Shown piece by piece: positions 1,345 to 56,322 of a stretch of DNA of 64,000 nt (its first letter is position 1; every line of letters begins with the position of its first letter). Below the pieces are notes generated by a model. That model did not search any database. It was given only the letters and a program-made list of their open reading frames with translations, and was not told the DNA's origin. The position numbers and the translations under genes were made by a program. The DNA is from Ardenticatenales bacterium (lineage in GTDB: Bacteria > Chloroflexota > Anaerolineae > Epilineales > Epilineaceae): assembly GCA_020853525.1 (NCBI GenBank), contig JADYYS010000044.1:1-64000 (forward strand), in the 5' to 3' direction.

Positions 1345-2324
1345 CCGCCGGACTCCATCCGCACCGGCGCTTCGCCCCGCTCCGCCCATATCTCCCCCGC
1401 CAACCGCCGCCCCCCCTTGATCGCCAGCCCAAGCCGCACAGCGCCCCGCACCCACCACGCCGCGCCGGCATCGTAGTGCTTGCGGTAGAACAGCCACATG
1501 GCCCGCGTGAACTCGTAGCGGGCGCGGGGACTGTGGCGGCTGGCGGCGCGCTTCACGTGGTGGACGGTCACGTGCGGCCGGTAGCCGACGCGCCAGCCGG
1601 CGCGCTTCAGCCGCAGCGCCCAGTCCAGATCCTCACCGTACATCCAGAATCGCTCGTCCAGCAAGCCCACCTGTTCCACCGCCGCGCCCCGGACCAGCAT
1701 GCACGCCCCGACGACGCTGTCGACGTCGGCCGGCGCATCGACGTCCAGGAACGTCATGTTGTAGCGCCCGAAACGCCGGCTGCGCGGGAACAGCCGCGCC
1801 AGCCCACTGAAGCGATAGAACGACACCGCCGGGGTCGGGAAGCCGCGCCGACACGCCCGGTCGAGCGTCCCGTCGGCCAGGAGGAGCTTCGGCCCGACGG
1901 CGCCGAGGTCCGGCTCGGCATCGAGGCACGCCGTGAGCGCGGCCAGAGCGCCGGGCGGCACGACGGTGTCGGGGTTGAGGAGCAGGACGTGGGGCCGAGC
2001 GGTCCGGTCGCCGACCGCTGCGGCGCCACCTTCAGCAGCGACGGTCGCGACAGCGGCGCCATCGAACCCCACCGCCCGCAGCGCCACGTTGTTCGCCGCC
2101 GCGTAGCCCACATTGCCGCCGCTGTCGATCACCTCGGCCCACGGGAATGCCGCCCGCACCATCGCGGCGCTTCCGTCCGTCGACGCATTGTCCACCACGA
2201 TCACGTGCGGCGCGGCCAGACCGGCCAGCCCCCCGTCCCGGAGGGATGTCATGCAGTCGGCGAGCAGGTCACGCGTGTTGAAGTTGACGATGACGACGAC
2301 GAGACTCGGGCGCCGGTCCGTCAT
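1341..2324 (-). CDS. Family 2 glycosyltransferase (rhamnosyltransferase-like)
   Basis: A 327-residue cytoplasmic GT-A enzyme that transfers a sugar from a nucleotide donor, presumably in the same glycan pathway as the downstream sugar transferase. Visible landmarks are VVIVNFNTRDLL near the N-terminus, VVDNASTDGS, GNVGYAAANN, the metal-binding LLNPDTVV region, VVGACMLVRG, and FWMYGEDLDWALRLKRAGW with its catalytic ED pair. These match the WbbL/rhamnosyltransferase branch of GT2. The ATG at 2324 overlaps the selB stop by four bases and the gene's own stop overlaps the next start, so three consecutive genes are coupled. Donor and acceptor are unknown. Confidence 0.93.
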   Translation of the reverse strand: MTDRRPSLVVVIVNFNTRDLLADCMTSLRDGGLAGLAAPHVIVVDNASTDGSAAMVRAAFPWAEVIDSGGNVGYAAANNVALRAVGFDGAAVATVAAEGGAAAVGDRTARPHVLLLNPDTVVPPGALAALTACLDAEPDLGAVGPKLLLADGTLDRACRRGFPTPAVSFYRFSGLARLFPRSRRFGRYNMTFLDVDAPADVDSVVGACMLVRGAAVEQVGLLDERFWMYGEDLDWALRLKRAGWRVGYRPHVTVHHVKRAASRHSPRARYEFTRAMWLFYRKHYDAGAAWWVRGAVRLGLAIKGGRRLAGEIWAERGEAPVRMESGG

Positions 2325-12007: not shown

Positions 12008-13069
12008 CTATCCCGCGCCCACCCGCCGCAACGCCCCGACCACCCGCCCGACCTCGATCGTCCGCACGCATGGATGGTCGGCGGGGTCGGGCCAGTCCAA
12101 CCGGCCGCACGGGGCGCAGACCAGGCCGCCGGCGACGACGGCGTGGCGCTCGGCGGCACCCCACGGGCCGAAGCGCGCCGCGTCGGCCGGGCCGAACAGG
12201 TGAACCGTCGGCGTCCCGACCGCAACCGCCAGGTGCAGCGGCCCGCTGTCCGGCCCGGCGACCGCGCGGCAACGGGCGAAGACGGCGGCCAGCGTCGGAA
12301 TGTCGGTGCGGCCCGCGAGGTCGATGACGGGCCGGCCGAGCGCCGCCGCCACCTCGGCGACGAGCGTCGCCTCGTCCGGGCCGCCGGTGAGCACGACGGG
12401 CTCGTCCGGCGCCGTCACCGCCCGCACGGCGGCGCCCCACGACGCCGGTGTCCAGCGCTTGATCGGCGAACCGGAGCCGGGGTGGATGGCCAGGGGCGCG
12501 CGGGGGGCGGCGGATCCCAGCAGAACGGCGGCCCGAGCGTGGTCGTCGTCCGTCAGGCGGAAGGACATCGGGTGGGCGGCGGGTGATGGAGATGCTGTGT
12601 CGATGAGCGCAACGCCCGCCGCCGCCACATGGGCCGGCCGGCGCGCGGCGGGCAGGCGGTGCGTGAGGACCCACCGGGTGCGCCGTGTGTCATGGCCGGC
12701 GACGATCGGAATGCCGGCGGCGCGGGCGAGGAGTGCGCTCCAGCGGTCGTCGTCGCGGGCGATGACGGCCGCATCGTAGCGCGGCGACGTCTGGCGCAGC
12801 GCGCGGCCGGCGGTGAACAGGCGGCGGTACGGGTCGAGCAGCGATGCGCGGGGGAGGCGGTCGAAGTACGGGAAGGCGAGCGTCTCGACGTGGTCGACGC
12901 CGGGCAGGCGCGCAGCGACATCGGCGCACCACGGGCCGACGACGAGCGTGACGTCGACCGCGGGCCAGCGGCTTCGGATCTGGGCCAGCATCGGTCCCGC
13001 CAGCAGTACATCGCCCAGATGGTCGGGGCGGAAGACGACGATACGGTCGGGCGGAGGAATGGGTGTCAT
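12008..13069 (-). CDS. Family 9 glycosyltransferase (heptosyltransferase-like)
   Basis: A 353-residue GT-B enzyme of the ADP-heptose:LPS heptosyltransferase family. Landmarks: N-terminal RIVVFRPDHLGDVLLAGPML, mid-protein LAIHPGSGSPIKRWTPASW, VVLTGGPDE, and the donor-site segment VAGPDSGPLHLAVAVGTPTVHLFGP. A late cysteine pair (VCAPCGRLDW) also occurs in many GT9 proteins. It is the last gene of a minus-strand glycosyltransferase run. Members outside Gram-negative LPS producers act on other surface glycans, so the acceptor is open. A 104-base gap separates it from the cupin transcription unit. Confidence 0.94.
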   Translation of the reverse strand: MTPIPPPDRIVVFRPDHLGDVLLAGPMLAQIRSRWPAVDVTLVVGPWCADVAARLPGVDHVETLAFPYFDRLPRASLLDPYRRLFTAGRALRQTSPRYDAAVIARDDDRWSALLARAAGIPIVAGHDTRRTRWVLTHRLPAARRPAHVAAAGVALIDTASPSPAAHPMSFRLTDDDHARAAVLLGSAAPRAPLAIHPGSGSPIKRWTPASWGAAVRAVTAPDEPVVLTGGPDEATLVAEVAAALGRPVIDLAGRTDIPTLAAVFARCRAVAGPDSGPLHLAVAVGTPTVHLFGPADAARFGPWGAAERHAVVAGGLVCAPCGRLDWPDPADHPCVRTIEVGRVVGALRRVGAG

Positions 13070-13083
13070 CGCACGGTCCGATT

Positions 13084-13125
13084 CCTCATGACCCGTACAA
13101 CGCTCCTCATGAACCGTACAACGCC
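13084..13125. repeat. Tandem 21-base duplication at the end of a glycosyltransferase gene
   Basis: Two adjacent 21-base copies (13084-13104 and 13105-13125) differ at two positions. Each carries the codons for the last residues and the stop of the GT4 gene, so the second stop is a duplicate outside the gene. Confidence 0.75.
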
Positions 13126-14390
13126 TCGATACCCGGCACCAGCGTCGACCATCGGTAATCCCGCATCACGCGCTCGCGGGCCGCCCTGCCGAGCGCCGTG
13201 CGCTCGGCCGGGTCGGCAGCCAGGCGCAGCACGGCCGCCGCGAGATCGGACGGCGTGTCGGCCACGACCACCTCGCGGCCGGGGACGAGGTCGAGGCCCT
13301 CGACGGCCAGCGACGTCGCAGCGACGGCCTTGCCCATCGCCATCGCCTCGAGCACCTTGAGACGCGTCCCGCCGCCGACACGCAACGGGACGACCACGAC
13401 GCCCGCCGCAGCGAGGTGCGGCCGGACGTCCGGCACGGCCCCGGTGACCTCGATGCCCGTCGTCGCATCGTCCAGTGCCGCGACGCGCGGCGACGGGTCG
13501 CGGCCGACAATGCGCAGGCGGGCGGTCGGGCGGGCAGCGCGGACCCGGCCCCAGACGTCGTGGACGAACCACGCCACACCGTCGACGTTCGGGCGGAAGT
13601 CCATCTTGCCGGTGAACACGCACAGGTCATCGTCCTCCGGCGCGCCCGTCGGCGCATACGCATCCGTATCGATGCCGTTGGGGACGACGGTCAGGCGGGC
13701 GTTCGGGGCCAGCGGTTGGAGCGTAGCGGCGTCCGCGGCGCTGACGGCGACGCAGGCGTCGGCGGCCGCCAAGAGGCGGGCCTCGAAGCGCCGGAGTTTG
13801 GCGGTCTGCAGCCGCGAGTAGAGCGCGGCGGGCCAGCCGGCGAGCCGCCGCGCGTCGGCCCGCCAGGCACGGTCCTGGAGGCGCCACTCGGCGTTGTGGG
13901 CATCGTAGATCAGCCGCGGGCGGCGGCCGTCCAGGGCCAGCGGCGCGAAGGCGAGGGCGTGCCAGCCGTGGCGGGCCATCTCGAGGCCTTCGATTTGGAC
14001 AACGTCATACGGATCGGCGCGCACGTCGGCCAGGTGGGCGACGATGGCCTCGGAGAGGGCGGGCGCGTCCAGGCGGCGGGCGAGGTCGGGATCGCGCGTG
14101 CCGGGCAGGTCCGCCAGGCGGCGGGCGATCGGGCGGGGGGGCGGGGCCGGGACGGTGATCAGCATGGCGCCGAGGGCCTCGATCCGTTCGCGCGCTTCCC
14201 GGTCGCCGTCGCCGTGGCCCGCGCCGTTGCCCGTTCCGTGGCCCTTTCCGCCGCCCACACCGCCCCGGTCGAAGGCGACGACGGTGACGCGGTGGCGCTT
14301 GGCGATCTCGGTGAGGATGCCCCAGTTGCGCATGGAGGTGCCCTGATGAGGCGGCCACGGCACTTGCGGGCAGAGGAGGAGGATGCGCAT
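13107..14390 (-). CDS. Family 4 glycosyltransferase
   Basis: A 427-residue GT-B enzyme, ATG start at 14390. N-terminal LLLCPQVPWPPHQGTSMRN is typical of the sugar-transfer group that includes PEP-CTERM/XrtA-associated GT4 enzymes. The C-terminal donor domain shows VFTGKMDFRPNVDGV, LRIVGRDPSP, VTGAVPDVRPHLAAAGVVVVPLRVGGGTRLKVLEAMAMGKAVAAT, split here only by description, and ends WSTLVPGIEALYGS. A glycine-rich insert (GGVGGGKGHGTGNGAGHG) near residue 45 is low-complexity. The gene lies 12 bases behind the next GT4 gene upstream and belongs to the same run. Confidence 0.93.
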   Translation of the reverse strand: MRILLLCPQVPWPPHQGTSMRNWGILTEIAKRHRVTVVAFDRGGVGGGKGHGTGNGAGHGDGDREARERIEALGAMLITVPAPPPRPIARRLADLPGTRDPDLARRLDAPALSEAIVAHLADVRADPYDVVQIEGLEMARHGWHALAFAPLALDGRRPRLIYDAHNAEWRLQDRAWRADARRLAGWPAALYSRLQTAKLRRFEARLLAAADACVAVSAADAATLQPLAPNARLTVVPNGIDTDAYAPTGAPEDDDLCVFTGKMDFRPNVDGVAWFVHDVWGRVRAARPTARLRIVGRDPSPRVAALDDATTGIEVTGAVPDVRPHLAAAGVVVVPLRVGGGTRLKVLEAMAMGKAVAATSLAVEGLDLVPGREVVVADTPSDLAAAVLRLAADPAERTALGRAARERVMRDYRWSTLVPGIEALYGS

Positions 14391-14402
14391 GGGCTGGGCG
14401 GG

Positions 14403-15662
14403 TCAGCGCCGCTCGCCGGCCACCGCCTCGCGGTAGACATCGAGCGTGGCGCGGGCCATGCGCTCCAACGTGAACCCTTCCGCTCGCGCACGCCCCGCGC
14501 CGGCCATGCAGCGCGCCAGCGCGGCGTCGTCCAGGACGCGGCGGATGGCCTCCGCCCAGGCCGCCGGGTCGTCGGGCGGCACCACGAGCGCGGCGTCGCC
14601 GGTCACTTCGGGCAGGCTGCCGGCGGCGCTGACGACGGTCGGCGTGCCGCACGCCATCGCCTCGACCGGCGTCAGGCCGAAGCCCTCGTCGACCGCCGGG
14701 TGGGCGAGGCAGGCGGCGGTGCGGTAGAGGGCGACGAGGTCGTCGTCCGGCACCCAGCCGAGGAAGCGCAACCGGTCGCCCAGGCCGAGGTCGCGGGCGT
14801 GGTCGGTGATCGCCTCGCTGTGCCAGCCGTCGGCGCCGGCGAGCGCAAGCGTGAGGTCGGTGCGGTCGCGGGCGAGAGCGGCGAAGGCGTCGAGCAGCAC
14901 GCCGACGTTCTTGCGCGGCTCGATCGTGCTGACGAACAGGACGAACGGGCTCGTCAGACCAAGGCGCGCACACGCGGCGCGGTCGGCGTCGGCATCGGCC
15001 GGGCCGTCGGCCGGGCGGAAGCGGTCGTCGACGGCGTTCGGGACGACGCGGATCCGGCGCGGATCGATGCGCGTGAGGGCGGTGAGCTCGCGCGCGGTGT
15101 GGTCGGAGACGGCGATGACGCGTCGGGCGCGGCGGACGGTGCGGTGCACGCGTGCGTAGTAGCGGAGGCTGTCGGCGGTGAGGCGCTCGGGGTGGCGGAG
15201 GAACGCGACGTCATGCACCGTCGCCACGATCGGGCCCAGCCACAGTGTCGGGACGGCCACGTCCGGGCAGTGCAGCAGGCCGCGCGGCGGGCAGCCGGCC
15301 AGCGCGGCGTCGATGGGCAGCGTGAAGGCCTCGAAGCGGTGGTGCGGTGGGGTGCGCAAGTGGCGACGCCGGAAGACGTCGTCGGCGCGGTCGCCCAGCG
15401 TGCCCGGTGCGGACGCGGCGATCACGGCGTCGGAGGGATCGGAGGGATCGGAGGGATCGACGCCCGTCCTCCCCGCACCACCCACTTCACCCGGCCCCCC
15501 CACCGCCCGCCGATGCGCGAGCACCGTCACGCGCCACGCCTCGCGCTCGACCGCCGGCAACGCGGCGATGCCGGCGAGCAGGCGCCGCGTGTGCTCGGCG
15601 ATGCCGCCGCCGCGGTACGCCGCGAGGCGGGCGTCGACGGCGACGGAGCGCGGACGCGCCAA
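14403..15662 (-). CDS. Family 4 glycosyltransferase (mannosyltransferase-like)
   Basis: A 419-residue GT-B enzyme. N-terminal VAVDARLAAYRGGGIAEHTRR and PIVATVHDVAFLRHPE match the GT4 branch of mannosyl- and rhamnosyltransferases. The donor domain shows FVLFVSTIEPRKNVGVLL, LRFLGWVPDDDLVALYR and the catalytic-site HPAVDEGFGLTPVEAMACG (E-x7-E type). Only a TTG (15662), five bases after the upstream protease stop, can serve as start without deleting the conserved VAVDAR strand. A 9-base triplicated unit gives (DPS)3 near residue 70. Likely co-transcribed with the protease upstream and the two glycosyltransferases downstream. Confidence 0.93.
   Translation of the reverse strand: MARPRSVAVDARLAAYRGGGIAEHTRRLLAGIAALPAVEREAWRVTVLAHRRAVGGPGEVGGAGRTGVDPSDPSDPSDAVIAASAPGTLGDRADDVFRRRHLRTPPHHRFEAFTLPIDAALAGCPPRGLLHCPDVAVPTLWLGPIVATVHDVAFLRHPERLTADSLRYYARVHRTVRRARRVIAVSDHTARELTALTRIDPRRIRVVPNAVDDRFRPADGPADADADRAACARLGLTSPFVLFVSTIEPRKNVGVLLDAFAALARDRTDLTLALAGADGWHSEAITDHARDLGLGDRLRFLGWVPDDDLVALYRTAACLAHPAVDEGFGLTPVEAMACGTPTVVSAAGSLPEVTGDAALVVPPDDPAAWAEAIRRVLDDAALARCMAGAGRARAEGFTLERMARATLDVYREAVAGERR
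15432..15458. repeat. Three copies of a 9-base in-frame unit
   Basis: Unit ggagggatc, three exact copies, encodes Asp-Pro-Ser repeats in the GT4 gene. Confidence 0.8.
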
Positions 15663-38835: not shown

Positions 38836-38864
38836 TTGACCCGCTCCGACCGTCGGCCTAGAGT
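38836..38864 (+). promoter_or_regulatory. Promoter of the DUF493-like gene
   Basis: TTGACC (38836-38841), 17-base spacer, TAGAGT (38859-38864). The leader would be about 95 bases. Confidence 0.6.
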
Positions 38865-38966: not shown

Positions 38967-39338
38967 ATGGCCACGCATGCCCCCGACCGTGAAGTCCCGG
39001 CCTCACCGCCTGCCGAAGCGGACGGCGATGCGGCCCCCGAGGCAACCGACGGCGTCCTCGACGAGGCGACGCAGATACAGCTCCTCGAAACGTACCACAC
39101 GTTCCCCGGCCCGTTCACGATCGTCCTGATCACGAGCGCCGACGAAGCGTTCGTTGCCCTGCTTCAGGCCACCGTCGCCGCCGAGCAAGGGATCGACTCG
39201 TTCGAGATCGAGGTCCGGCCGTCGCGCAAAGGGAACTACGTGGCCTATCGCATCCACGTCCACGTGGCCAACGCCCGCGCCGCGCTCGACCGCCGCCGCG
39301 TGCTGGCGACGCTGCCCGACCTCTACGCCGTGTTCTGA
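38967..39338 (+). CDS. DUF493 (YbeD-like) domain protein
   Basis: A 123-residue cytoplasmic protein. After a low-complexity N-terminus, residues about 45-123 fit the small alpha/beta ACT-like fold of DUF493: FPGPFTIVLITSADEAFVALL, the diagnostic VRPSRKGNYVAYRIHVHV, and a C-terminal VLATLPDLYAVF. The biochemical role of this family is unknown. ATG 38967 is chosen because GAGG precedes it; the ORF upstream to 38901 is not conserved. The end overlaps the convergent glycosyltransferase gene by 16 bases. Confidence 0.8.
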   Translation: MATHAPDREVPASPPAEADGDAAPEATDGVLDEATQIQLLETYHTFPGPFTIVLITSADEAFVALLQATVAAEQGIDSFEIEVRPSRKGNYVAYRIHVHVANARAALDRRRVLATLPDLYAVF

Positions 39339-42300
39339 TCGCGTGCCGCGGTCCGTTCGGTCGCGTCCAGCCGGCGCCAGCGGGCCATCGACTTGACCTC
39401 GCGCACAAGCGCCACCGGGCCGTAGCGCCACAGCGTGCCGAGCGCCTTGACGTGGGCCGGCGCATCGGGCGGCCACGGCCGGCGGTCGATGGCGGGCAGC
39501 GGACGCCCGCCGATGAGCCAAGCCGCGGCGCGGATCGGCCATAGCTGCGCCACGGCGCGCTCGGTGCGCTGCCATTCGGCCGCATTGGCGACCGCCAGGT
39601 CGAGCGCATCGGCCAGCGCTGACGCGTCGCCCTCGGGCAGGAGCGTGCCCGCATCGGCCGGCGGCTCGGCCCAGAGTCGGAAGCTGGGCGACCAAGCCTC
39701 GCTGACGGCATCATCGACGACGCCGCCGGCGTCGGCCAGGGCGGAGCCGTGGATGCCGAGCAGCCGCGGCGGCACCGCGACGCCGCCGCCCGTGTCGGCG
39801 TCGCGGTCACCGGCCCACGTCAACCGGAACGTCCACCATCGCCCGGCGCTTTCCGGCAGCGGCGGGAAACGGAACGTCAGCCACTCCTCGGCCCGCCCCT
39901 CCCGCTCGGCGGTGGCCGTGCGGACGGGCGCGACCCCCGTTGCCGGCAGTCCCGCCGCGACGGTCAGCCGCAGCCGGGCCGCATCGTCGAGCCCGAGCGG
40001 GCACACCGCCGCGGTGCCGTCGGCGCCGTCCGTTCCGTCCGTGCCGATGACATCTTGTCCCTGCACGACTTCGCCCCGCACGACGCGCAGGTCGATCCGA
40101 CAGAGGCCGCTGCGGCGGGCGACGACGGTCAGCCCGACGCCGCGGCCCGCCGACAGCTCCGGACCGCGGTCGCCGCCGCGCGGCTGGAGGCGGTCGAGCT
40201 GCCAGGCCCACGGCAACGGCCCACACGTCGACGATGGGTCGGCCGCGGCGAGCGAGGCGACGGCGGCCCGGCACCGGCCGGCGGAGTGGCGCTCGACCGC
40301 GGCGCTGCCGGCCTCGCCGACGAGCGCGCGCAGGGCGTCGTCGCGAACGAGCCGGACGATCGCCCCGGCCAGCAGGTCCGGCTGCGGCCGGCCGAGGCAC
40401 GCGGTGGCCCCGTCCTGCAGGAGCCAGCGCACGGCAGGCACGTCGGCCGCGGCCACCGCCGTGCCGCACGCCATCGCCTCGAGGACGACGGACGGCACGT
40501 TGCCGAAGCACGGGGCCAGCAGGACCGTCCCGGGCGCGAACAGCGCCGCGCGCGCGTCCGCGTCCAGCACGCCCAGCCAGCGCCAGCCCGGTCGGTCGAC
40601 GTCCGCCGCGTCGGGCGGCGGGGCGGAGGCGTCGCGGGCGAACAGCCGGACGGTCAGCGCGGGCACGGTGTCGGCGGCGATGTGCAGGGCGGACAGCGCC
40701 AATCGACGGGTCGAGTCGCGGGCGATGCCCAGATCGCACAGCACGACCGGGCGCGCCGGGGGGGCGAGCGGTGGCGGCTGGACGCGTGACAGCATCGAAC
40801 CCGGTTCCGACCGCCCGTCGGCTTGGCCGTCGCCGCCGGTTCGACCGACCCGTCCGACGCGGCAGAATCGTGCCGCGTCGATCGGGTAGGGGAGCGGGAC
40901 GACATGTGTTGGGCGGGCATCTCCGATGGGGAGTGGCTCGACTCCGTCGCCGTGGCCTTGGATGACGCGCGCCAGCCGCGCCGTCAGCCATGGCCCGAGC
41001 GCACCGATGCGCTCGGCCGACCGGAGCGCCCGTTCGGCCGCCACGACCTCGGCGCCCATCGGCCCGCTGGTGACCGTCGGGTCGTCGTCCAGCACGAGCA
41101 TCGCGGATGGCGGCGGCGTGCCGTCGAGCGCGGCACGGATGGCGGCTTCGATCGTGGCAGGGGATCGCACATCCGCGTCGATTGCGTCGATTGCGTCGAT
41201 TGCGTCGATTGCGTCGATTGCGTCGATTGGGCGAACGTTGGCACCGCGCCCGCCGTCGCGGCGCCGCCCGTCCTTCGCCCCGTGCGTGAGGCCGTCGATC
41301 GCGGCGAGCCAGGCCGGGCCGCGGACGTCGGTGAGGTGGGCGTCCAGCACGGCGACGCGGGCGGCGCGGCCAACTGCCTCGCGGCGGCCCGGGTCGGCGG
41401 CAAGGGCGAGGAGGGCGTTGCGCCAAGCCTCGGGCACGGCGGCGAGGAAGCCGTCGCGGCCGTCGCGGATCGCGCCGCCGAACACGGCGGTCGCGCTGGC
41501 GACGGTCGGCACGCCGACGGCGGCGGCCTCGAACCACTTCAGGGCGCTCTTGGCCTCGCAGAACGCATCGCCGATGACGAGCGGCGCAAGGTTGATGTCG
41601 AGATCGGCCAGGGCGGCCGGCAGATCGCGCCACGGCATGTGGTCGATGCGCTCCACACGCTCGGACCACGGTTCCCAGGATGGGTCGAGGGCAAGCGGGC
41701 CGATCAGCCGGAACCGGGCGCGCGGCTCGGCCGCCAGGACGGCCTGCACCGCGGCGGCGCACACGGCCAGGTCGCGGTCATGCGTCGGCGTGCCGCTGGC
41801 GTAGCCGATGACGAGGGCATCGCCGCGCCGCGCCCGACGGGCAAGCGCGTCGCCCGACAGCCGCCAGAGCTCGAGGTCGATCGCGTTCGGCACGATCCAC
41901 GCCGGCACGCCGAGCCGCTCGACGGCCTCGGCCAGCGGCGCGGTGCTGACGATGCAGCCGTCGCACGCCGTGAGGACGCGGCGGTGGTGCGCCGGCGGGG
42001 CGAGCGAGCGGGCGGCATCCGCATGCGCGACGACGTCCGTTCGACCGTCGCCGACACCGCCCGCGGCACCGCCCTCCGCTGCCGCGTCGCCGTCCACCCC
42101 GCTCGCGTCGAACACCAGGTCGTCCGTGTCGTAGAGCACCGTGCCGCCGCCGGCGCGCACGGCCCCGATCCAGCCGTCCACGTCGGGGTGCCACGCGACG
42201 CGGTGCAGGATCAGGACGGGCGCGCCGGCCAGCTCGTCGGCGGCGGGCGGATCGGCCTCGACGGTGCGGACGCGGATCGGGCGGCCGGCGAGGGCCATCG

Positions 42301-42376
42301 CCTCGGCGGCGTGCCAGGCGCGGTAGCGGCGCGTGTCGCCGGCGCAGCCGCTGACGAGGAGGGGCGGGGGGATCAT
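39323..42376 (-). CDS. Large glycosyltransferase with two GT-B-type parts and a C-terminal beta domain
   Basis: A 1017-residue protein. The N-terminal part starts PPLLVSGCAGDTRRYRAWHAAEAM, with VLILHRVAWHPDVDGWIG and TVLYDTDDLVFDASG. It continues RFRLIGPLALDPSWEPW and FCEAKSALKWFEAAAVGVPTVASA, a GT4-like donor site. A six-copy Ile-Asp-Ala linker (about 400-417) separates it from a second GT4-like unit (LLAPCFGNVPSVVLEAMACGTAVAAADVP). A beta-sandwich-like region (RSGLCRIDLRVVRGE to WWTFRLTWAG) and a helical end (RPWPPDAPAHVKALGTLWRYGP) complete it. The last two parts match the neighbour at 42373-45807, so the two genes are tandem paralogues. ATG 42376 overlaps that gene's stop. Predicted to build or decorate a surface glycan. 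Confidence 0.82.
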   Translation of the reverse strand: MIPPPLLVSGCAGDTRRYRAWHAAEAMALAGRPIRVRTVEADPPAADELAGAPVLILHRVAWHPDVDGWIGAVRAGGGTVLYDTDDLVFDASGVDGDAAAEGGAAGGVGDGRTDVVAHADAARSLAPPAHHRRVLTACDGCIVSTAPLAEAVERLGVPAWIVPNAIDLELWRLSGDALARRARRGDALVIGYASGTPTHDRDLAVCAAAVQAVLAAEPRARFRLIGPLALDPSWEPWSERVERIDHMPWRDLPAALADLDINLAPLVIGDAFCEAKSALKWFEAAAVGVPTVASATAVFGGAIRDGRDGFLAAVPEAWRNALLALAADPGRREAVGRAARVAVLDAHLTDVRGPAWLAAIDGLTHGAKDGRRRDGGRGANVRPIDAIDAIDAIDAIDAIDADVRSPATIEAAIRAALDGTPPPSAMLVLDDDPTVTSGPMGAEVVAAERALRSAERIGALGPWLTARLARVIQGHGDGVEPLPIGDARPTHVVPLPYPIDAARFCRVGRVGRTGGDGQADGRSEPGSMLSRVQPPPLAPPARPVVLCDLGIARDSTRRLALSALHIAADTVPALTVRLFARDASAPPPDAADVDRPGWRWLGVLDADARAALFAPGTVLLAPCFGNVPSVVLEAMACGTAVAAADVPAVRWLLQDGATACLGRPQPDLLAGAIVRLVRDDALRALVGEAGSAAVERHSAGRCRAAVASLAAADPSSTCGPLPWAWQLDRLQPRGGDRGPELSAGRGVGLTVVARRSGLCRIDLRVVRGEVVQGQDVIGTDGTDGADGTAAVCPLGLDDAARLRLTVAAGLPATGVAPVRTATAEREGRAEEWLTFRFPPLPESAGRWWTFRLTWAGDRDADTGGGVAVPPRLLGIHGSALADAGGVVDDAVSEAWSPSFRLWAEPPADAGTLLPEGDASALADALDLAVANAAEWQRTERAVAQLWPIRAAAWLIGGRPLPAIDRRPWPPDAPAHVKALGTLWRYGPVALVREVKSMARWRRLDATERTAARDQNTA
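41175..41228. repeat. Six-copy 9-base in-frame tandem array
   Basis: Unit gcgtcgatt, six exact copies, encodes (Ile-Asp-Ala)6 at a domain boundary of the large glycosyltransferase. Confidence 0.95.
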
Positions 42377-45300
42377 CGGCCGGCCGCCCGGCGGTGCCGC
42401 CAGAGCGCCGCCGCCTCGCGTGCGACGGCGATCGGGCCGTAGCGCCTGAGGCCCTCGAGCAGCTTGACGCGCGCCGGCGCATCGGCCGGCCACGGGCGGA
42501 GCGGCACGGGCGGCAGCGGCGCGGCGAGGCGCGCCCAGGCGGCGAGCGGGCGGCGGACGGCAGCATGCCGCTCTCGCCAGCCGGCGGCGCGGCGCAGCTC
42601 GAGGGCGGCGCGGCGGCGCGCGGCCAGGCGGGTGAACGCGAACGGATCAGCCGACGCCGGGTCGTGTGCGCCATCGAGGGCGAAGGTGCGGTGGGCGGGC
42701 AGCGGGAGGTGAGCGATGGACGACGCGGGCCGGACCGGCAGCTGCGACGGCGGCACGCCGGCGACGTCGGCGACGTCGGCGACGTCGGCGAAGTCGGCGA
42801 CGTCGGCGCCCGACCTGTCGATGCTCGCCCCGCCGACGCCAGACCCGCCGACGCCGGCCCCGCCGACGACCACCCTGTCGATGCCCGCCCCGCCGACGAC
42901 CTCGCACGCCAGCTCGACCGCCAGCGCGTCATCGGCGGTGCCGGCCGGTCGATCGTCGGTCCGGGGCAGGTAGGACAGCACTGCCCAGAGCGTGCGGCCG
43001 GCGACGTCGGCCAGGGGGGTGAACGGGAACGCGGTCCAGCCGTCGGGCACGAGGTCGGCGGTGTCGACGTCGGCACGCGCCAGGTCGAACGGGGCGCTCG
43101 GCAGCGCCTTGATGCGCAGAACGACGAGGCCGTCGCAGCGTCGGCCGGGCACGGCGGGGAAGCGGAGTTCGACGCGGCACAGACCGTCGCGGCCGGGCGC
43201 GATCGGCCAGGCCATCTCGCGCACGTCGATGCCCGACGTGCGCACGTCGGCCCGCCCGCCGTCGCCCACTGTCCAGCCGTCGAGGTGGCGGGCGGCGATG
43301 CGCGTCGGGGGTGGGCCGGTGGGCGCCGGCGCGCCGCCCGGTCGATCGGCGCGGTCCTCGGCCGCGTAGCGCGCCACGTGGGCAGCGAACTGGCGCCCGC
43401 TCTCGTCCCAGCTGGCGGCGGCCACTGCGGCGCGGCCGCCGGCGACGAGCCGGTCGCGGAGCGCGGCGTCGTCGATGACGCGGAGGATCGCTGTCGCCAG
43501 GTCCGATACCGTCGGCGCGGCGACGACGCAGTTCTCGCCGTCGCGCTCGAACCAGCGCGTCGATCGGCTGGCCGCGGCGACGACGCACAGGCCGCAGGCC
43601 ATCATCTCCAACGGCACGAGCGACAGGTTCGTGAAGGACATCGCCAGGCCGACGGTGGCGCTGCGGTAGAGATCGGCCAGCGCGGGCGCATCGAGCACGC
43701 CCGCCTGGACGTGAGGGAAGTCGGCCAGCCCGGGCTGCGGTGCGCCGCCGTACAACACCACTTCGACGTCCGGTCGTTCGGCCTGCACGCGCGCCAGCGC
43801 CGCCAAGCCGAGCGCGACGCCCCGGCGCGGCGTCGTGGCGCGGGCGTAGAAGACGACGCGCGGCCGGGCCGGCGGCGGCGCGGCGCCGGGGCGGTAGACG
43901 GCGTGGTCGACACCGAAGTCGACGGCGCGCGCACGGCCGCCGAAGCGCGCCTCGATCAACTCCGCCAGCCATGGCCCGATCGTGATGTGGCCGAGGCCGA
44001 GGCGGTAGGTCCGCGCGGCGGCCGCGTAATCGGCGGAGAGGGACTGGAAGGACGGCTCGTGATCCTGCACGAAGTACAGCCGAGTGCCGATGCCCCGCGC
44101 GCGCGCCACGGCCGCGGCCGTCGTCCAGCCGGTGGCGATCGCGACGTCGGCCGGCGGGAGGTCACCGCCGAGCCGCACGGCGGCGGCGCTCGGCGGAAAG
44201 TTCGCGCGCACGTAGCGCGCGGCGTCGGCCTCGCTCACGTCGCGCATGAGCGGCCCGCGCTCGATGTGGACCGTGACGTCGTGCCCGGCCTCGCACAGGC
44301 CGGCGACCATCCGCATGAGCGTCGTGTGGCCGCCGGAGCCGGGCGGGGGCTCGGGCATGAGGACGCGGATCGTGAGAGGCGCACCGACGTCGCCGTCCGT
44401 CGCTCCGACGGGCGGCTTCGATCGTCCCGCTGTCGCCGTCGCCGCCGCGGCGCGCAGCGTCGCCACCGTCCGTTCGGCCTGCGCGGCCGTCGTGCGGTGC
44501 GCTTGCACCCACGCGGCGGCGGCGCTGCCGAGGGCGGCGCGCCGCCGCGGGTCGGCCGCGAGGCCGTCGATGGCGGCCTCCCAGGCGTCGACATCCTCCG
44601 CGAGAAGGCCGAGCGCCGTCGGCGGACCGGCGACTGCGGCGGCCGTCGAACCCGCCGGGCCGGCGGCATCGCCCTCCCCGCCCTCCGCTTCGTCGACCAG
44701 TGCCTCATCACGCAGTGCCTCGTCACGCAGTGCCTCATCACGCAGTGCCTCATCACGCAGTGCCTCATCACGCAGTGCCTCGTCACCCAGTGCGCCGCCG
44801 AGGGCGCTGGCGAACGCCTGCGTGGCCACGGCGACGGTCGGCACGGCGCAGGCGGCGGCCTCGAGCCATTTCAGCTCGCTCTTGCACTGGCAGAACAGGT
44901 TGTCGACCTCGAGCGGCGCCACGTTCACGTCAAAGGCGGCGATCACCTCGGGCAGTGCGCGCCAGTCGACGGCCGGCACGCGGACGACGCGCTCGCCCAT
45001 CGCCGCCCAGTCGTCGTCGAGCGCCAGCGGGCCGACGACGTGGAACACGACGTCCGGGCGGCGCGCCATCACGCGCAGCAGCGCCGGTCCGCAGGCGGCA
45101 TTGAAGTCGCGGTCGTGCGTCCGCGTCCCACTGGCGTAGCCGACGACGACGGTCGGCCCGTGCATGGCGCGATGGACGGCCGCTGCGCGATGAACATCGC
45201 CGACCCACCGGGCGCCGGCATCGTTCGGCCGGGCGCCGGCATCGTCCGCGCGGCCGCCGGCCGTCCGGATCGAGAGGCCGAGCAACTCGAGGTCGACGGC

Positions 45301-45807
45301 GTTGCGGCGGATGAAGGCCAGCCGTCCGGCGCGCCGGACGCGCGCGGCGAGGGCGGCGGTGGGCACGAGGGCGGCGTCGCAGGCCAGCAGCGTGCGGCGG
45401 TAGCGGCGGACGCCCTGGTGGTACAGCGCCTTCTCGTCCGGCGTGAGCGCCTGGACGCCATGGTGCCAGTGGGTCGATTCGGGCTCGAAGACGAGGTCGT
45501 CGACGTCGAACAGCACGACGCCGCCCGCGTCGCGGGTCCGATCGATGAGCGATTGCACGAGCGGATCCCAAGCCACACGATGCAGGACGACGATCGGCCA
45601 CGCCGGCGAACGGGCGAGGAGCGCGGCGTCGATCCGCGGCGCGACGGTCGCCATCACGCCGGCCAGCTCGAGCTCCTCGGCCAGGTCGTAGGCGCGGTAG
45701 CGGCGCGTGGCGCCGTCGGCACCGCTCACGACGAGAACGGGGCCGATGTCGGGGCGGTACCGCAGGGGCGACGCGGGCGTCGTCGGCATGGCAGCGCCGA
45801 CCGGCAT
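42373..45807 (-). CDS. Giant glycosyltransferase: GT4-like part, WsaF-like GT4 part, C-terminal beta domain
   Basis: An 1144-residue protein. Part 1 (to about 350): VLVVSGADGATRRYRAYDLAEEL, IVVLHRVAWDPLVQSLID, VVLFDVDDLVFEPES, VVGPLALDDDWAAMG, LFCQCKSELKWLEAAACAVPTV, clearly paralogous to the start of its neighbour. A six-copy RDEAL linker follows. Part 2 resembles the WsaF rhamnosyltransferase branch: GGHTTLMRMVAGLCEAGHDV, YFVQDHEPSFQSLSADY, VVFYARATTPRRGVALGL, SFTNLSLVPLEMMACGLCV. Then come the beta domain (GRDGLCRVELRFPAV), a Gly/Val/Ala repeat linker, and RPWPADAPARVKLLEGLRRYGP. ATG 45807 overlaps the FG-GAP gene stop. Donor and acceptor are unknown. Confidence 0.82.
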   Translation of the reverse strand: MPVGAAMPTTPASPLRYRPDIGPVLVVSGADGATRRYRAYDLAEELELAGVMATVAPRIDAALLARSPAWPIVVLHRVAWDPLVQSLIDRTRDAGGVVLFDVDDLVFEPESTHWHHGVQALTPDEKALYHQGVRRYRRTLLACDAALVPTAALAARVRRAGRLAFIRRNAVDLELLGLSIRTAGGRADDAGARPNDAGARWVGDVHRAAAVHRAMHGPTVVVGYASGTRTHDRDFNAACGPALLRVMARRPDVVFHVVGPLALDDDWAAMGERVVRVPAVDWRALPEVIAAFDVNVAPLEVDNLFCQCKSELKWLEAAACAVPTVAVATQAFASALGGALGDEALRDEALRDEALRDEALRDEALRDEALVDEAEGGEGDAAGPAGSTAAAVAGPPTALGLLAEDVDAWEAAIDGLAADPRRRAALGSAAAAWVQAHRTTAAQAERTVATLRAAAATATAGRSKPPVGATDGDVGAPLTIRVLMPEPPPGSGGHTTLMRMVAGLCEAGHDVTVHIERGPLMRDVSEADAARYVRANFPPSAAAVRLGGDLPPADVAIATGWTTAAAVARARGIGTRLYFVQDHEPSFQSLSADYAAAARTYRLGLGHITIGPWLAELIEARFGGRARAVDFGVDHAVYRPGAAPPPARPRVVFYARATTPRRGVALGLAALARVQAERPDVEVVLYGGAPQPGLADFPHVQAGVLDAPALADLYRSATVGLAMSFTNLSLVPLEMMACGLCVVAAASRSTRWFERDGENCVVAAPTVSDLATAILRVIDDAALRDRLVAGGRAAVAAASWDESGRQFAAHVARYAAEDRADRPGGAPAPTGPPPTRIAARHLDGWTVGDGGRADVRTSGIDVREMAWPIAPGRDGLCRVELRFPAVPGRRCDGLVVLRIKALPSAPFDLARADVDTADLVPDGWTAFPFTPLADVAGRTLWAVLSYLPRTDDRPAGTADDALAVELACEVVGGAGIDRVVVGGAGVGGSGVGGASIDRSGADVADFADVADVADVAGVPPSQLPVRPASSIAHLPLPAHRTFALDGAHDPASADPFAFTRLAARRRAALELRRAAGWRERHAAVRRPLAAWARLAAPLPPVPLRPWPADAPARVKLLEGLRRYGPIAVAREAAALWRHRRAAGR
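42761..42805. repeat. Five-copy 9-base in-frame tandem array
   Basis: Unit gcgacgtcg, five copies with one variant base in the fourth, encodes repeated Asp-Val-Ala in the C-terminal linker of the giant glycosyltransferase. A less regular Gly/Val repeat continues to about 42900. Confidence 0.9.
44698..44787. repeat. Six-copy 15-base in-frame tandem array
   Basis: Unit cagtgcctcatcacg with few substitutions, six copies, encodes (Arg-Asp-Glu-Ala-Leu) repeats between the two glycosyltransferase parts. Confidence 0.95.
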
Positions 45808-47594
45808 CACGGTGCCATCGTATGTTCGCCCGGCACGAACGGCACCGGGTCCCGGCCCTGGACGACGTGATACCACCGGCCGGCGGCCACGTCCGCGTAC
45901 GTCGTTTCGGCGCCGCCGGGCCACTGGATGCGGATGTCGGCGGTGGCGGCGGAGGCCAGGCCGAGGAGGACGCGGGCGTCGTTCACCGACAGGAAGCTCG
46001 ACCCGCCGAGGCGCTGGGCGGTGGGCGTGCGATCGCCGGCCGAGGCCGTGATCCGCGCTCCGATGGCGGAGCGGTTGGCGCCGGCGGCCACATCGCCCTC
46101 GAGCCAGAGTCCGAGCCACCGGCCGGCGGCCATCGTCTCGTTGTGTGCGACCTCGAGCGGTCCGCCGTTGTTGCCGACGACGACGTCGAGGCGGCCGTCG
46201 CCGTCGAGATCGCCGGTGGCGAGTCCGCGGCTCCCGAGGGCGGCGGTGAAGGCATCGCCGACGGCGGCCGAGACGTCGCTGAACGTCCCGTCGCCGCGGT
46301 TCTCGAACAGCGTGTTCGTCTGGCCGAAGGCGACGTCGCCCATGAAGCTGCCCATGTTGTCGTACAAGTACCCGTTGGCGATCAGGATGTCGGTGTCGCC
46401 GTCCGCATCCAGGTCGGCGAGGTCGATGCCCCACTTCAGGCGCGCGCGCGCCGCGACGCCGATGCCGACGGCGTCGGACACCTCGCGGAACAGGAGCCGG
46501 CCGGGTCCGATCGGCGGTTCCTGGAGGTAGGTGCTGGCGGACTCGCCCTGGAAGTTGGCGGCGATCAGATCCGGCCGGCCGTCGCCGTCGACGTCGCCGA
46601 GGTCGGTGCCCATGCCGGCCTCCTCGGCGCCGTTGCTGGAGTACGCAACGCCCGCGACGGAGCCGACGTCGGTGAAGCGTCCGGCGCCGTCGTTCAGCCA
46701 GAGTTCGTTGCGGTCGAGGTCGTTTGCGACGTAGACGTCGGTGTCGCCGTCCAGGTCGATGTCGCCGGCGACGAGCGCGAGGCCGCGGGTCGGCACGTCG
46801 GCGGTGATGCCGGCTTCTTCGGATCCGTCGGTGAACGTGCCGTCGCCATTGTTGCGCCAGTAGCGGTCGTGGACGCCCGCGTACATCTCGGGCGTGCAGT
46901 ACACGTGGACCCGGTTGAGGTGGCACTTGATCGCGTTCGCCATCGTGTAGTCGACGTAGCGCGTCACCCAGAGGTCGAGGTCGCCGTCGCCGTCGCCGTC
47001 CAGGAAGGCCGAGCTCATGCTCCAGCGCTTGTCGTCCGTCAGGCCCGCGGCGGCGGTGACGTCCTGGAAGCCCGTGCCGGTGTTGCGCAAGAGGGTGTCG
47101 CCGCCGCCGTAGTTCGACAGAAAGAGGTCGGTCCAACCGTCATTGTTCCAGTCGCCGGCCGCGACGCCCATGCCGTAACCCCGGCTCGGCAGCCCCCAGG
47201 CCGCCGTGGTATCGGTGAAGTGGCCACGGCCGTCGTTCAGGAAGAGACGATTGGCCGCCTCGGGCGCCCGCACGGCCTGCCCGACCGTCCCGCTGTTCGT
47301 CACGACGAGGTCCGGTGCGCCGTCGCGGTTCACGTCGACGAGGGCGACGCCGGAACCCATGAACTCCGGCATGTACTTGTCGGCGGAGTAGGTCGGAACG
47401 TGGCGGTACGCGCCGAGGCCGACCTGCGCTGCGACCTCGCGAAAGCGGAGGGATGTGGTCGACGTGGCGGCTGCGATCGACGGCGGCGCAGGGCTCGCGG
47501 CTTCAGGTGAAGGCGTTGACGCGGGGCGCCGGCATGCGGCCAGCGTGAAGACGAGAGAGGCCGCGATGGCGGCGCGGCGGGCCCTCGCCCTCAC
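45807..47594 (-). CDS. FG-GAP/VCBS and ASPIC-UnbV (CRTAC1-like) lipoprotein
   Basis: A 595-residue exported protein from GTG 47594, overlapping the TPR gene stop (GTGA). A lipobox VFTLAAC puts the acylated cysteine at residue 21. The body holds multiple calcium-binding FG-GAP repeats of the form DxNxDGxxD: LVDVNRDGAPDLVV, AGDWNNDGWTDLFLSN, AGDIDLDGDTDVYVAN, LGDVDGDGRPDLIAAN, TGDLDGDGRLDVVVGN. They form a predicted beta-propeller. The C-terminal ASPIC/UnbV domain follows (IGARITASAGDRTPTAQRLGG to IQWPGGAETTYADV). These proteins act outside the cell, probably in binding. In many genomes they sit beside TPR proteins, as here. Confidence 0.93.
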   Translation of the reverse strand: MRARARRAAIAASLVFTLAACRRPASTPSPEAASPAPPSIAAATSTTSLRFREVAAQVGLGAYRHVPTYSADKYMPEFMGSGVALVDVNRDGAPDLVVTNSGTVGQAVRAPEAANRLFLNDGRGHFTDTTAAWGLPSRGYGMGVAAGDWNNDGWTDLFLSNYGGGDTLLRNTGTGFQDVTAAAGLTDDKRWSMSSAFLDGDGDGDLDLWVTRYVDYTMANAIKCHLNRVHVYCTPEMYAGVHDRYWRNNGDGTFTDGSEEAGITADVPTRGLALVAGDIDLDGDTDVYVANDLDRNELWLNDGAGRFTDVGSVAGVAYSSNGAEEAGMGTDLGDVDGDGRPDLIAANFQGESASTYLQEPPIGPGRLLFREVSDAVGIGVAARARLKWGIDLADLDADGDTDILIANGYLYDNMGSFMGDVAFGQTNTLFENRGDGTFSDVSAAVGDAFTAALGSRGLATGDLDGDGRLDVVVGNNGGPLEVAHNETMAAGRWLGLWLEGDVAAGANRSAIGARITASAGDRTPTAQRLGGSSFLSVNDARVLLGLASAATADIRIQWPGGAETTYADVAAGRWYHVVQGRDPVPFVPGEHTMAP

Positions 47595-50500
47595 GGTGCC
47601 GCCGCCTCGACGCGCGCCGCCTCCGCCTGCGCCGTTGCGGCCAGATCCGCCTCTCCCTGCGCCTGGTAGACCGCCGCCGCGAACTGCCAGATCTCCCGCC
47701 GCGTGGCCGGGTCGGCGCTTTCGACCTCGGGCAGCATGGCATCGATCGTCGTGCGGGCGGTCGCGACATCGCCGGCTTCCCACGCCGCCTTGAGCGCCAC
47801 CGCACGTGCCGACAGGCGCATGAGGCGGGCGTTGTGGTCGTCCTCGCGGTCGTGGATGGCGGCGACCCGATCGTACGCTGCTTGCGCGCCGGCGGCATCG
47901 CCGAGCCCGGCGCGGGCGCGACCGAGGGCGTTGTAGGCCGGGAAGTAGTCGTCGCGCAGGGTCGTGGCCTGTTCGAGGACGGCGATCGCGGCCTCGCTCT
48001 CGCCCTCCTCCAGGTGCAACAGGCCGCGCAGGGTCAGCGCATCCACACGGTCGGCCGTGGCGAGGCCGGCGCCGGCGCGATCGAGGATCGCTGCGGCGGC
48101 GGCGATTTCGCCCAGGCGCGCGAGGGGCAGCGCGGCGGAGTAGGCGGCGGCGGGGTCGGTGGGCGCGGCGTCGGACAGCGGGCGGGCGATCGCCGCCGCG
48201 TCGGACCATCGGCCGAGATTGATGTAGACCTTGGCCAGCGTGGCCTGTTCGGCCGCCGACAGCACCGGTCGGCTGGTCAGGACGGCGGCGAGGCCGGTCC
48301 AGTCGTCCCGCGAGATGAGCGCGGCCCGAAGCACGCCGTCGACCTCGGCCGACGTGGGGTGGGCGCCGTACAGGGCGCGCAGCGTGGCGAGGTGATCGTC
48401 CGTCACGCGCTTGGACGCCAGAGCCGACTGGACCGCCGCGAGCGAGGCGCGTTCGGCCTCGCTCAGCGGGGCGCCGCGCGCGGGGCTGGCCGGCGTCGCG
48501 GCGCCGCCGGCGGCGCCGGTCCCATCGGCCCCGGCACCATCGGCTCCACCGGCCGCATTCGCCGTCGATCCCGATGCGCCGCCCGTCGAAACGGGGCCGG
48601 TGCCGCGGCTGCCGCCCGGCCCGCACCCGGCCAGCGTGCCGCCGACGACGACCGCGGCCGCGACCGCCGCGAGCCACCGCCCGAGCCAGCCCAGCACCTC
48701 GCCGTACCAGTGGCGGCTGTTCTGCGGCTTGAGGATCCAGTGGTTCTCGTCCGGATAGACGACGAGGCGCGCCGGCAGGCCGCGGGCACGGTAGACGTTG
48801 TAGATGGCCAGCCCCTGGTTGTAGGGCACGCGGTAGTCGCGCTGGCCGTGGACGACGAGCATCGGCGTCTGGAAGCCGGCGGCGTGGCGGAGGGGGTTGA
48901 AACGATCGAGGCCGTCGATATCGCCCCAGAGCTCGCCGCCCATCGAGCGCTCGCGGCCCTGGGTGACGTCGGTGGCGAACTGCGTCTGGAAGTCCGACAC
49001 GCCGGCGTGGTTCACGGCGCAGGCGTAGCGATTCGTCTTGCCGCACAGCCAGCTGACGAGGTAGCCGCCGTACGAGCCGCCCGTGATCGCCATCCGGTCC
49101 GGGTCGGCGATGCCCCGTTCCACGAGGAGGTCGGTGGCGGCCTCGATGTCACGGCCGGGCTGATCGCCCCAGGTCCCGAGGATCGACTTGGTGAACGCGT
49201 CGCCGAAGCCCGTGCTGCCGTGGAAGTTCACGAGCGCGACGACGTAGCCCGGCGCCGCGAACGCATGGGCGCACCACCGCCAGTGCCAGCCGTCGCCGAA
49301 CGTGCCGTGCGGGCCGCCATGGATCATGTGCACCAGCGGCCACGGCTTGGCCGGGCGCTCGCCCGGCGCCGGGACGCGCGCGCCGGGCGGGTAGACGACG
49401 AACATCTGGACGGCGTCGCCGTCCGCGCCCGTGAACGTGACGTCCTCGACGTCGCCGAGGGCGATATCGGCCAGGATCACATCGCCGAAGCCGCCGATGC
49501 GGTCGACGTTGCGTGTGCCTCCGCCTGCGTCGTCGCGACCGGCCGCGAACCACGCCGCGCTCGGCGGGGCGGTCAGCGCGGCGTGGGTGCAGAAGACGCG
49601 GCCGCCGGCAGGCTGGGGCGAGGCGAGCGTGCCGTCGCACGCGCGCAGCACCGGCGTCACGCCGCGCGGGTCGGCCGTCGATGCGGCGACCGCGGCGGCG
49701 ATATCGAGCGACCAGACGGCGTTGCGCGGTCCGATTTCGCCGGTGAACCAGAGCGTCGCCGGCGCGTCGGGGTCGAACGTCCACTCTCCGGCCGAGGTGT
49801 CCCAACCTTCGGTGAGGACGGTGTGTGTGCCCGCGGCGCGGTCGAGGGCGACGAGGCGCATGCGGTCGGCGTAGAAGTCGAACTCGACCTGCATGCCGTA
49901 CACCAGCCAGCGGCCGTCGGGCGAGAAGACGGGGCGGTGGGCCTCGTGCTGGTCTGCCGCATCGGCGTGGCCGGCGGCATCGGCGGGGGGCGGCGCGACG
50001 AGGCGCGGCGGGGAGACGCTGTCGGGCGCGGCGGCGGCTGCTGCGGCGGCGGCAAGGTCGTTCGGGACGTCGACGACGAACGCGCCCCACAGCACCCGGT
50101 CGTACGGCGGATCGGAGCGACAGGCGTCGAACGCGATCGCTCCCCCGTCCGGGCTCACGGACACGCCGTTGCCCGGGCCCATCAGGTAGAGCCAGCGGCG
50201 CATCGCGGGCGTGACGTCCGCCAGCTCGCCGCGGTCCACGTCGAGGACGTAGATGTGGTGGACGATCCCGTCCGTCAGCCAGCGGTCCCAGTAGCGGTAG
50301 ACCCGGTCCTCGGTGACGTAGGCCTTGACGGCGTCGTCCTCGCGTGCCTTGTGGCGCCCGGCCGTGCCGGCCAACGACGGCGCATCGGCGTATACCGGGG
50401 CGACGAAGGCGATCCGGCGGCCGTCCGGGAACCAGACCGGCGTGCCGACGCCGAGCGTGAGGTCCGTGCACCGGACGGCCTCGCCGCCGTCGAGCGGCAT

Positions 50501-50926
50501 CACCCAGAGCTGGTCGACCTCGCCGAAGCGGGCCGGGCCGTCGGCGAGGCCGGAGATCGACGACGATGCCGTGCCCGCAGCATCCGGCTTGGCCGCCGCA
50601 TCCGCCTTGGCCTTGCCGCCCTTCCCCGCCGGCGCCCCCGGCTTGCGGACGAAGGCGAGCCGCGCGCCGTCCGGGCTGACGGCCGGCTGGCTCGACGAGA
50701 CGTCGGCGGCGGTGAGTGCGCGCGGGGCGGGAGCGGGGGCCGCGGAAGGGTCGCCGTCGCCGCCCGTTGTCGCCGGCACGCGCCACAACCGCGTCGTGCC
50801 GACGTTCGCCGCGACATCGTACGTCGTGACGGGTACGATGCACCCCGAGCCGTCCGGCAGCGGCGCCGGCGTGCCGACGCGCGGCAGGGACCAGAGGCGG
50901 TCGACGGACATCGGTTCCTTGGGCAT
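47591..50926 (-). CDS. S9 prolyl-oligopeptidase-type hydrolase fused in frame to a TPR lipoprotein
   Basis: An 1111-residue reading frame. Residues 1-500 form a beta-propeller with repeated SPDG motifs (PAVSPDGARLAFV, VSVSPDGGAIAF, PVFSPDGRWLVYG). Residues about 500-752 are an alpha/beta hydrolase with Ser618 (GGSYGG), Asp697 (HGQRDYRVP) and His729 (DENHW). The S9 domain should end at about 752 (EVLGWLGRWL). With no stop it runs into AAVAAAVVVGGTLAGC, a lipoprotein-type signal with its lipobox cysteine at 768. A Gly/Ala linker and TPR-like helical repeats follow (GRWSDAAAIARPLSDAAPTDPAAAYSAALP) to the end. An in-frame GTG at residue 744 (position 48697) could begin a separate 368-residue TPR lipoprotein. 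GAAGGA precedes ATG 50926. Confidence 0.88.
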   Translation of the reverse strand: MPKEPMSVDRLWSLPRVGTPAPLPDGSGCIVPVTTYDVAANVGTTRLWRVPATTGGDGDPSAAPAPAPRALTAADVSSSQPAVSPDGARLAFVRKPGAPAGKGGKAKADAAAKPDAAGTASSSISGLADGPARFGEVDQLWVMPLDGGEAVRCTDLTLGVGTPVWFPDGRRIAFVAPVYADAPSLAGTAGRHKAREDDAVKAYVTEDRVYRYWDRWLTDGIVHHIYVLDVDRGELADVTPAMRRWLYLMGPGNGVSVSPDGGAIAFDACRSDPPYDRVLWGAFVVDVPNDLAAAAAAAAAPDSVSPPRLVAPPPADAAGHADAADQHEAHRPVFSPDGRWLVYGMQVEFDFYADRMRLVALDRAAGTHTVLTEGWDTSAGEWTFDPDAPATLWFTGEIGPRNAVWSLDIAAAVAASTADPRGVTPVLRACDGTLASPQPAGGRVFCTHAALTAPPSAAWFAAGRDDAGGGTRNVDRIGGFGDVILADIALGDVEDVTFTGADGDAVQMFVVYPPGARVPAPGERPAKPWPLVHMIHGGPHGTFGDGWHWRWCAHAFAAPGYVVALVNFHGSTGFGDAFTKSILGTWGDQPGRDIEAATDLLVERGIADPDRMAITGGSYGGYLVSWLCGKTNRYACAVNHAGVSDFQTQFATDVTQGRERSMGGELWGDIDGLDRFNPLRHAAGFQTPMLVVHGQRDYRVPYNQGLAIYNVYRARGLPARLVVYPDENHWILKPQNSRHWYGEVLGWLGRWLAAVAAAVVVGGTLAGCGPGGSRGTGPVSTGGASGSTANAAGGADGAGADGTGAAGGAATPASPARGAPLSEAERASLAAVQSALASKRVTDDHLATLRALYGAHPTSAEVDGVLRAALISRDDWTGLAAVLTSRPVLSAAEQATLAKVYINLGRWSDAAAIARPLSDAAPTDPAAAYSAALPLARLGEIAAAAAILDRAGAGLATADRVDALTLRGLLHLEEGESEAAIAVLEQATTLRDDYFPAYNALGRARAGLGDAAGAQAAYDRVAAIHDREDDHNARLMRLSARAVALKAAWEAGDVATARTTIDAMLPEVESADPATRREIWQFAAAVYQAQGEADLAATAQAEAARVEAAAP

Positions 50927-50962: not shown

Positions 50963-50991
50963 ACGTTACCGCGGGGGGTGGGGTGGGTCAA
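50963..50991 (-). promoter_or_regulatory. Promoter of the S9-TPR/FG-GAP/glycosyltransferase operon
   Basis: On the minus strand TTGACC (50991-50986), 17-base spacer, TAACGT (50968-50963). The start site near 50956 leaves about 30 bases of leader with the ribosome site. Confidence 0.6.
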
Positions 50992-56293: not shown

Positions 56294-56322
56294 TTGACCC
56301 CCCCGCCCCGCCCCGCTACGAT
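56294..56322 (+). promoter_or_regulatory. Promoter of the membrane protein-carA unit
   Basis: TTGACC (56294-56299), 17-base spacer, TACGAT (56317-56322). The ATG is only 11 bases after the -10 box, so the mRNA leader would be about five bases. Confidence 0.65.

Follow-up and report, generated by a model that had tools for sequence, protein, structure and literature searches.

The window analyzed here, a 64,000-nucleotide stretch from the genome of an uncultured Ardenticatenales bacterium of the class Anaerolineae, contains four co-directional genes (g1–g4) on the minus strand between positions 39323 and 50926, which form a tightly packed unit. The first encodes an S9 (acylaminoacyl-peptidase-like) peptidase fused to a TPR lipoprotein (g1: 47591–50926, 1111 residues); the same two parts are separate genes in G001, a relative from another genus. 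It is followed by an FG-GAP/UnbV_ASPIC (CRTAC1-like) lipoprotein (g2: 45807–47594, 595 residues) and two giant glycosyltransferases (GTs). One of these is a two-domain GT-B enzyme with a WsaF-like second half (g3: 42373–45810, 1145 residues), and the other is its paralogue, in which the second GT domain is more divergent (g4: 39323–42376, 1017 residues). All three junctions are four-base overlaps (GTGA at g1/g2 and g2/g3, ATGA at g3/g4), and the GTG start of g3 at 45810 is immediately followed by an ATG. Third-codon-position GC of approximately 0.82–0.97, mostly 0.87–0.95, indicates that all four genes are coding. Long open reading frames on the opposite strand (e.g., 42394–45870, plus strand) do not display this codon-position pattern and were rejected as spurious artefacts of the 73% GC content. 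An earlier note on this DNA had described a four-gene unit with four-base overlaps throughout, and its coordinates, strand, open frames, and overlap sequences all proved right. Pfam searches likewise bore out its domain content (S9 peptidase with TPR, FG-GAP_3/UnbV_ASPIC, and two GT-B glycosyltransferases); the paralogy of g3 and g4 and the lineage-specific fusion in g1 were absent from it.

A candidate promoter, TTGACC-N17-TAACGT, lies 36 bases upstream of g1 (50963–50991, minus strand), as the earlier note had also observed. Only 8 of its 12 positions agree with the sigma-70 consensus, and a generic promoter scan did not report it. The relaxed pattern TTGACC-N17-TANNNT is found at three sites in the window, all of them a short distance ahead of a gene start, against none expected from shuffled sequences; given that the pattern was picked after the first site had been seen, this recurrence is support rather than proof. 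The three sites (38836–38864, plus; 50963–50991, minus; 56294–56322, plus) precede unrelated genes, and the pattern is possibly a housekeeping promoter form of this genome. Elsewhere on the minus strand of the window are the gene for SelB, the selenocysteine-specific elongation factor (2321–4333), and separate glycan genes at 1–2324 and 12008–15662 (a Bac_transf initiating transferase, GT2, GT9, and two GT4). The Bac_transf gene (1–1344) is approximately 38 kb from the operon.

In surveys, four-base overlaps are the commonest gene spacing in prokaryotes and are overrepresented where genes encode heteromeric complexes (PMC10666635). The window's genome (G000; 4.27 Mb, 76 contigs) contains 15 such pairs with gene starts as called, rising to at most 23 of 83 co-directional pairs if alternative starts are permitted. 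As these overlaps are therefore ordinary in this genome, comparative data provide the useful evidence for an operon. The comparison drew on three genomes representing three genera of the family (G000, G001, and G002) and a class sample of 199 Anaerolineae genomes. A comparison of gene order, which the earlier note had called for, found the order kept on one strand at G001:C215: S9 peptidase, TPR lipoprotein, FG-GAP/ASPIC, a second FG-GAP/ASPIC, GT, and GT, with protein identities of approximately 50% to the window unit. In G001, where domain assignments were checked with Pfam and gene ends come from a simple codon-usage caller with approximate starts, a four-base gap separates the S9 and TPR genes, four-base overlaps join TPR to FG-GAP and the two FG-GAP genes to each other, and a 262-base spacer precedes the first GT, which may be expressed separately there. 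The third genome, G002 (81% complete), has the peptidase alone between unrelated genes, and no comparable unit was found in the 196 other Anaerolineae genomes. The order is thus kept in two genomes only. Conservation of flanking genes was sought between the window and its relatives and was not found.

The peptidase part of g1 (residues 1–752; 48671–50926, minus strand) shares 57–63% identity with stand-alone peptidases of the two related genera. Its Peptidase_S9 domain (residues 547–752) scores 1.7e-51 and 175.2 bits, against a curated cut-off of 22.6, and the catalytic triad residues are present: Ser618 in GGSYGG (from residue 616), Asp697 in GQRDYRVP (from 694), and His729 in DENHWIL (from 726). 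The TPR part (residues 769–1111; 47594–48622) shares 41% identity with the TPR lipoprotein that G001 encodes separately and 28–30% with two paralogues within the window's genome, and gives weak Pfam TPR matches at residues 895–1009. Strong matches to this part outside the window's genome were limited to G001 among the 199 Anaerolineae genomes. The fusion point (48623–48673, minus strand) consists of a hydrophobic segment with a lipobox inside the chain, LAAVAAAVVVGGTLAGC. No other stretch of g1 is as hydrophobic as this segment (mean KD 2.11), which aligns with the lipobox of the G001 TPR lipoprotein (...FGLLGCGP). Stand-alone peptidases terminate in GWLGRWLG (G002) or GWLARWLDAEAVG, whereas g1 runs from GWLGRWLA directly into AVAAAVVVGGTLAGCGPGG, which is the counterpart of the hydrophobic core plus lipobox in the G001 lipoprotein. 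The peptidase stop codon and the lipoprotein start are both missing, and the frame is continuous. Judged by these alignments, g1 is a lineage-specific fusion of a peptidase gene with the neighboring TPR lipoprotein gene, in which a cytosolic S9 peptidase would have been joined in frame to a TPR lipoprotein once the stop and the lipoprotein start had been lost.

Among 45 peptidase matches in 44 Anaerolineae genomes, g1 is the sole open frame longer than 1,000 codons, the next being 888. This uniqueness, together with the fragmented state of the assembly, could be taken to mean that two separate genes were joined artificially during assembly. We regard such an artefact as very improbable, as the join is in frame, coding periodicity is kept, and the stop codon and the lipoprotein n-region would have to be lost simultaneously, and one frameshift does not explain the join. 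Both alternative frames are stop-free for at least 82 codons after the fusion, so that one indel cannot conceal a normal gene end, and a single frameshift or indel error was rejected as the source of the fusion.

The lipobox of g1 is internal (residue 768) and would be N-terminal only in a chain beginning at 48697. No signal-peptide-like segment was found in the S9 peptidase relatives, and genes for Lgt and LspA are found in the window's genome. The fused protein is predicted to have its peptidase on the cytosolic side and its TPR part on the outer side of the membrane, and signal peptidase II may split the chain at the lipobox. It is possible, although we hold this only tentatively, that g1 is a single membrane-spanning precursor whose lipoprotein signal is internal, and that signal peptidase II cleaves it into a peptidase that stays in the cytosol and a TPR lipoprotein at the surface. 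Their ratio would be fixed by the fusion, and also fixed relative to the propeller lipoprotein and the glycosyltransferases through translational coupling. Two nested products in place of one fused protein appear unlikely. They would require the TPR lipoprotein to start within the peptidase frame at the GTG at 48695–48697 (minus strand), the only in-frame start codon near the fusion, giving a separate lipoprotein that begins MLGWLGRWLAAVAAAVVVGGTLAGC. This start would create an ordinary type II signal peptide (an Arg n-region, a hydrophobic core of approximately 15 residues, and LAGC), but no clear Shine-Dalgarno sequence precedes it at proper spacing, and the peptidase, still lacking a stop, would read through so that the fused product is made too. 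As a fusion, g1 is an uncomplicated natural example in which a cytosolic enzyme has been attached to a lipoprotein signal, and it raises the question of whether a folded domain of 750 residues ahead of the signal is tolerated by the lipoprotein pathway.

To our knowledge, FG-GAP/ASPIC proteins have no settled function in bacteria. The g2 protein matches FG-GAP_3 (3.6e-43) and UnbV_ASPIC (1.1e-11), contains seven DxDxDG-type calcium motifs, and has an N-terminal lipoprotein signal with the lipobox FTLAAC (ARRAAIAASLVFTLAAC), in agreement with the pattern [LVI][ASTVI][GAS]C behind a short hydrophobic core. Its nearest solved relative is human CRTAC1 (PDB entry 9etn, E 1.2e-13). UnbV_ASPIC matches number 14, 12, and 7 in G000, G001, and G002, respectively, and none were above threshold in 98 of 120 Anaerolineae genomes. 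TPR proteins adjoin FG-GAP genes in the window and at C74, C42 (two), C61, and C56 of the window's genome, as well as at G002:C483 and G001:C215. The pairs at C74 and C42 are accompanied by neither S9 nor GTs of the g3/g4 type. A TPR profile built for this analysis lacked sensitivity and failed to recover proteins annotated as TPR by Pfam; no class-wide count of TPR genes beside FG-GAP genes is therefore claimed.

Several FG-GAP/TPR loci hold envelope or glycan genes (an O-antigen-ligase-like Wzy_C fused to TPR; MBOAT with SGNH; LPG_synthase_TM with GT2), an uncontrolled association that favors an envelope role. At L029:5831–8977, the FG-GAP gene is followed by a 1048-residue protein combining an O-antigen-ligase-like Wzy_C domain with TPR repeats. 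In all three genera of the family, an FG-GAP/ASPIC gene adjoins a similar, YLPPLLITLILIAGN-like membrane protein (L162:5832–6770, L167:5216–5995, and L173:6941–7792). A second conserved neighborhood, present in two genera, places genes for LPG_synthase_TM and a flavin amine oxidase close to FG-GAP/TPR genes (L023:5118–11392 and L028:3–5834).

The GT group 1 domains of g3 and g4 exceed the curated Pfam cut-off (Glyco_trans_1_4, 83 and 81.9 bits). In addition, g3 matches WsaF_C with 55.2 bits, and WsaF_N with 26.6 bits, just below the cut-off of 27. The nearest solved relatives of the two enzymes are PimA (PDB entry 2gej) and WsaF (2x0d). In a tree of 42 related N-terminal GT domains, including those of the G001:C215 glycosyltransferases GT1 and GT2, g3 groups with GT1 and g4 with GT2 (support 0.98 and 0.99), and all four group together (0.97). 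The tandem pair was thus duplicated before the genera split, and its order has been kept since. Strong matches to g3 occur in 3 of the 199 Anaerolineae genomes (G000, G001, and G140). Giant GTs with this two-domain architecture are widespread, with relatives in many phyla. The GT linkers of g3, g4, and L021:3255–7316 carry in-frame tandem amino-acid repeats (among them DEALRDEALRD, IDAIDAIDAID, and STAASESTAASES), which differ in each gene.

We consider it probable, with appreciable room for doubt, that g1–g4 constitute an envelope operon with lipoprotein partners, sequential GTs, and a fused peptidase, whose genes are co-transcribed and translationally coupled and which has been passed on vertically in two or more genera of a single Anaerolineae family. 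In this arrangement, g1–g4 would be expressed from one message with translational coupling at the overlaps. Outside the membrane, the TPR lipoprotein and the calcium-binding, CRTAC1-like propeller lipoprotein would probably form one complex. Inside, the two ancient paralogous GT-B enzymes would be cytosolic and probably act sequentially on the same product, either a surface glycan or a glycosylated component of the envelope, and the S9 peptidase would be an accessory of the operon.

The main alternative holds that the TPR/FG-GAP pair is the functional unit, and that the S9 peptidase and GTs are passengers that came to share the promoter by historical accident and have been kept only by common descent. 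It draws on the TPR/FG-GAP pairs without S9 or these GTs at C74 and C42, on the lone S9 gene in G002, and on the varied contexts of FG-GAP genes across Anaerolineae. Varied contexts are also illustrated by a CRTAC1-family gene reported beside hydrazine-synthase-like genes (PMC12758564). Relatives of the GTs, too, are spread over many phyla and lack FG-GAP, TPR, or S9 neighbors within 10 kb: at 80 loci with related GTs in named genomes, ranging from Paenibacillus to Cellulomonas and Caldilineaceae, no S9, TPR, or FG-GAP gene related to those of the unit was found within the fetched 10 kb flanks. We nevertheless consider the passenger explanation improbable, although it merits serious attention, because gene order and direction are kept at approximately 50% protein identity while the flanks differ, which is longer than chance retention would be expected to last between genomes as divergent as these.

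A surface-envelope role of the operon is likely. The earlier note went further in proposing one surface-glycan or glycoprotein assembly unit. Lipoboxes and genuine GTs keep that proposal plausible, but Pfam identified no initiating transferase, flippase or ABC exporter, polymerase, or ligase among g1–g4 or in the G001 unit, and neither is a complete surface-polysaccharide operon. The lone S9 gene of the third genus, the TPR/FG-GAP pairs that occur elsewhere without S9 or GTs, and the 0 of 80 GT loci linked to FG-GAP or S9 weigh further against a single assembly unit. A literature search for an FG-GAP/TPR/GT operon returned nothing direct. For the envelope operon, a conserved combination of FG-GAP and TPR lipoproteins with GTs narrows the tests to surface glycosylation, or to glycan-dependent assembly of a calcium-stabilized lipoprotein complex.

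Each component of the operon resembles a known system and departs from it. The nearest solved relatives of g1 are the S9 acylaminoacyl-peptidases/acyl-peptide hydrolases (PDB entries 8wt1, 5yzm, and 7px8), with which it shares PD40 propeller-type repeats and an alpha/beta hydrolase domain with intact catalytic residues; unlike these enzymes, g1 continues at its C-terminal end, via an internal lipobox, into a TPR lipoprotein. A literature search for fused precursors in which the lipoprotein signal is internal found nothing direct. Fused bacterial precursors that contain a signal peptide between their parts do exist, for example, Bradyrhizobium fbcH, which encodes cytochromes b and c1. Like fbcH, g1 has an internal export signal between two proteins in one reading frame; in contrast to fbcH, the signal is of the lipoprotein type and its cleavage is putative. 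The g2 protein has the seven DxDxDG repeats and C-terminal ASPIC domain of the CRTAC1/UnbV_ASPIC FG-GAP propeller proteins (PF13517 and PF07593; 9etn), but differs from CRTAC1 in being a bacterial lipoprotein, one of 14 copies in the window's genome, coupled to a TPR lipoprotein and GTs. As in the WsaF- and PimA-like GT-B enzymes (2x0d and 2gej), g3 and g4 possess GT-B C-terminal domains, with the WsaF_N/C match located in the second half of g3. Unlike WsaF and PimA, each combines two GT domains, repeat-bearing linkers, and a C-terminal conserved region in one chain, and each is accompanied by a tandem paralogue.
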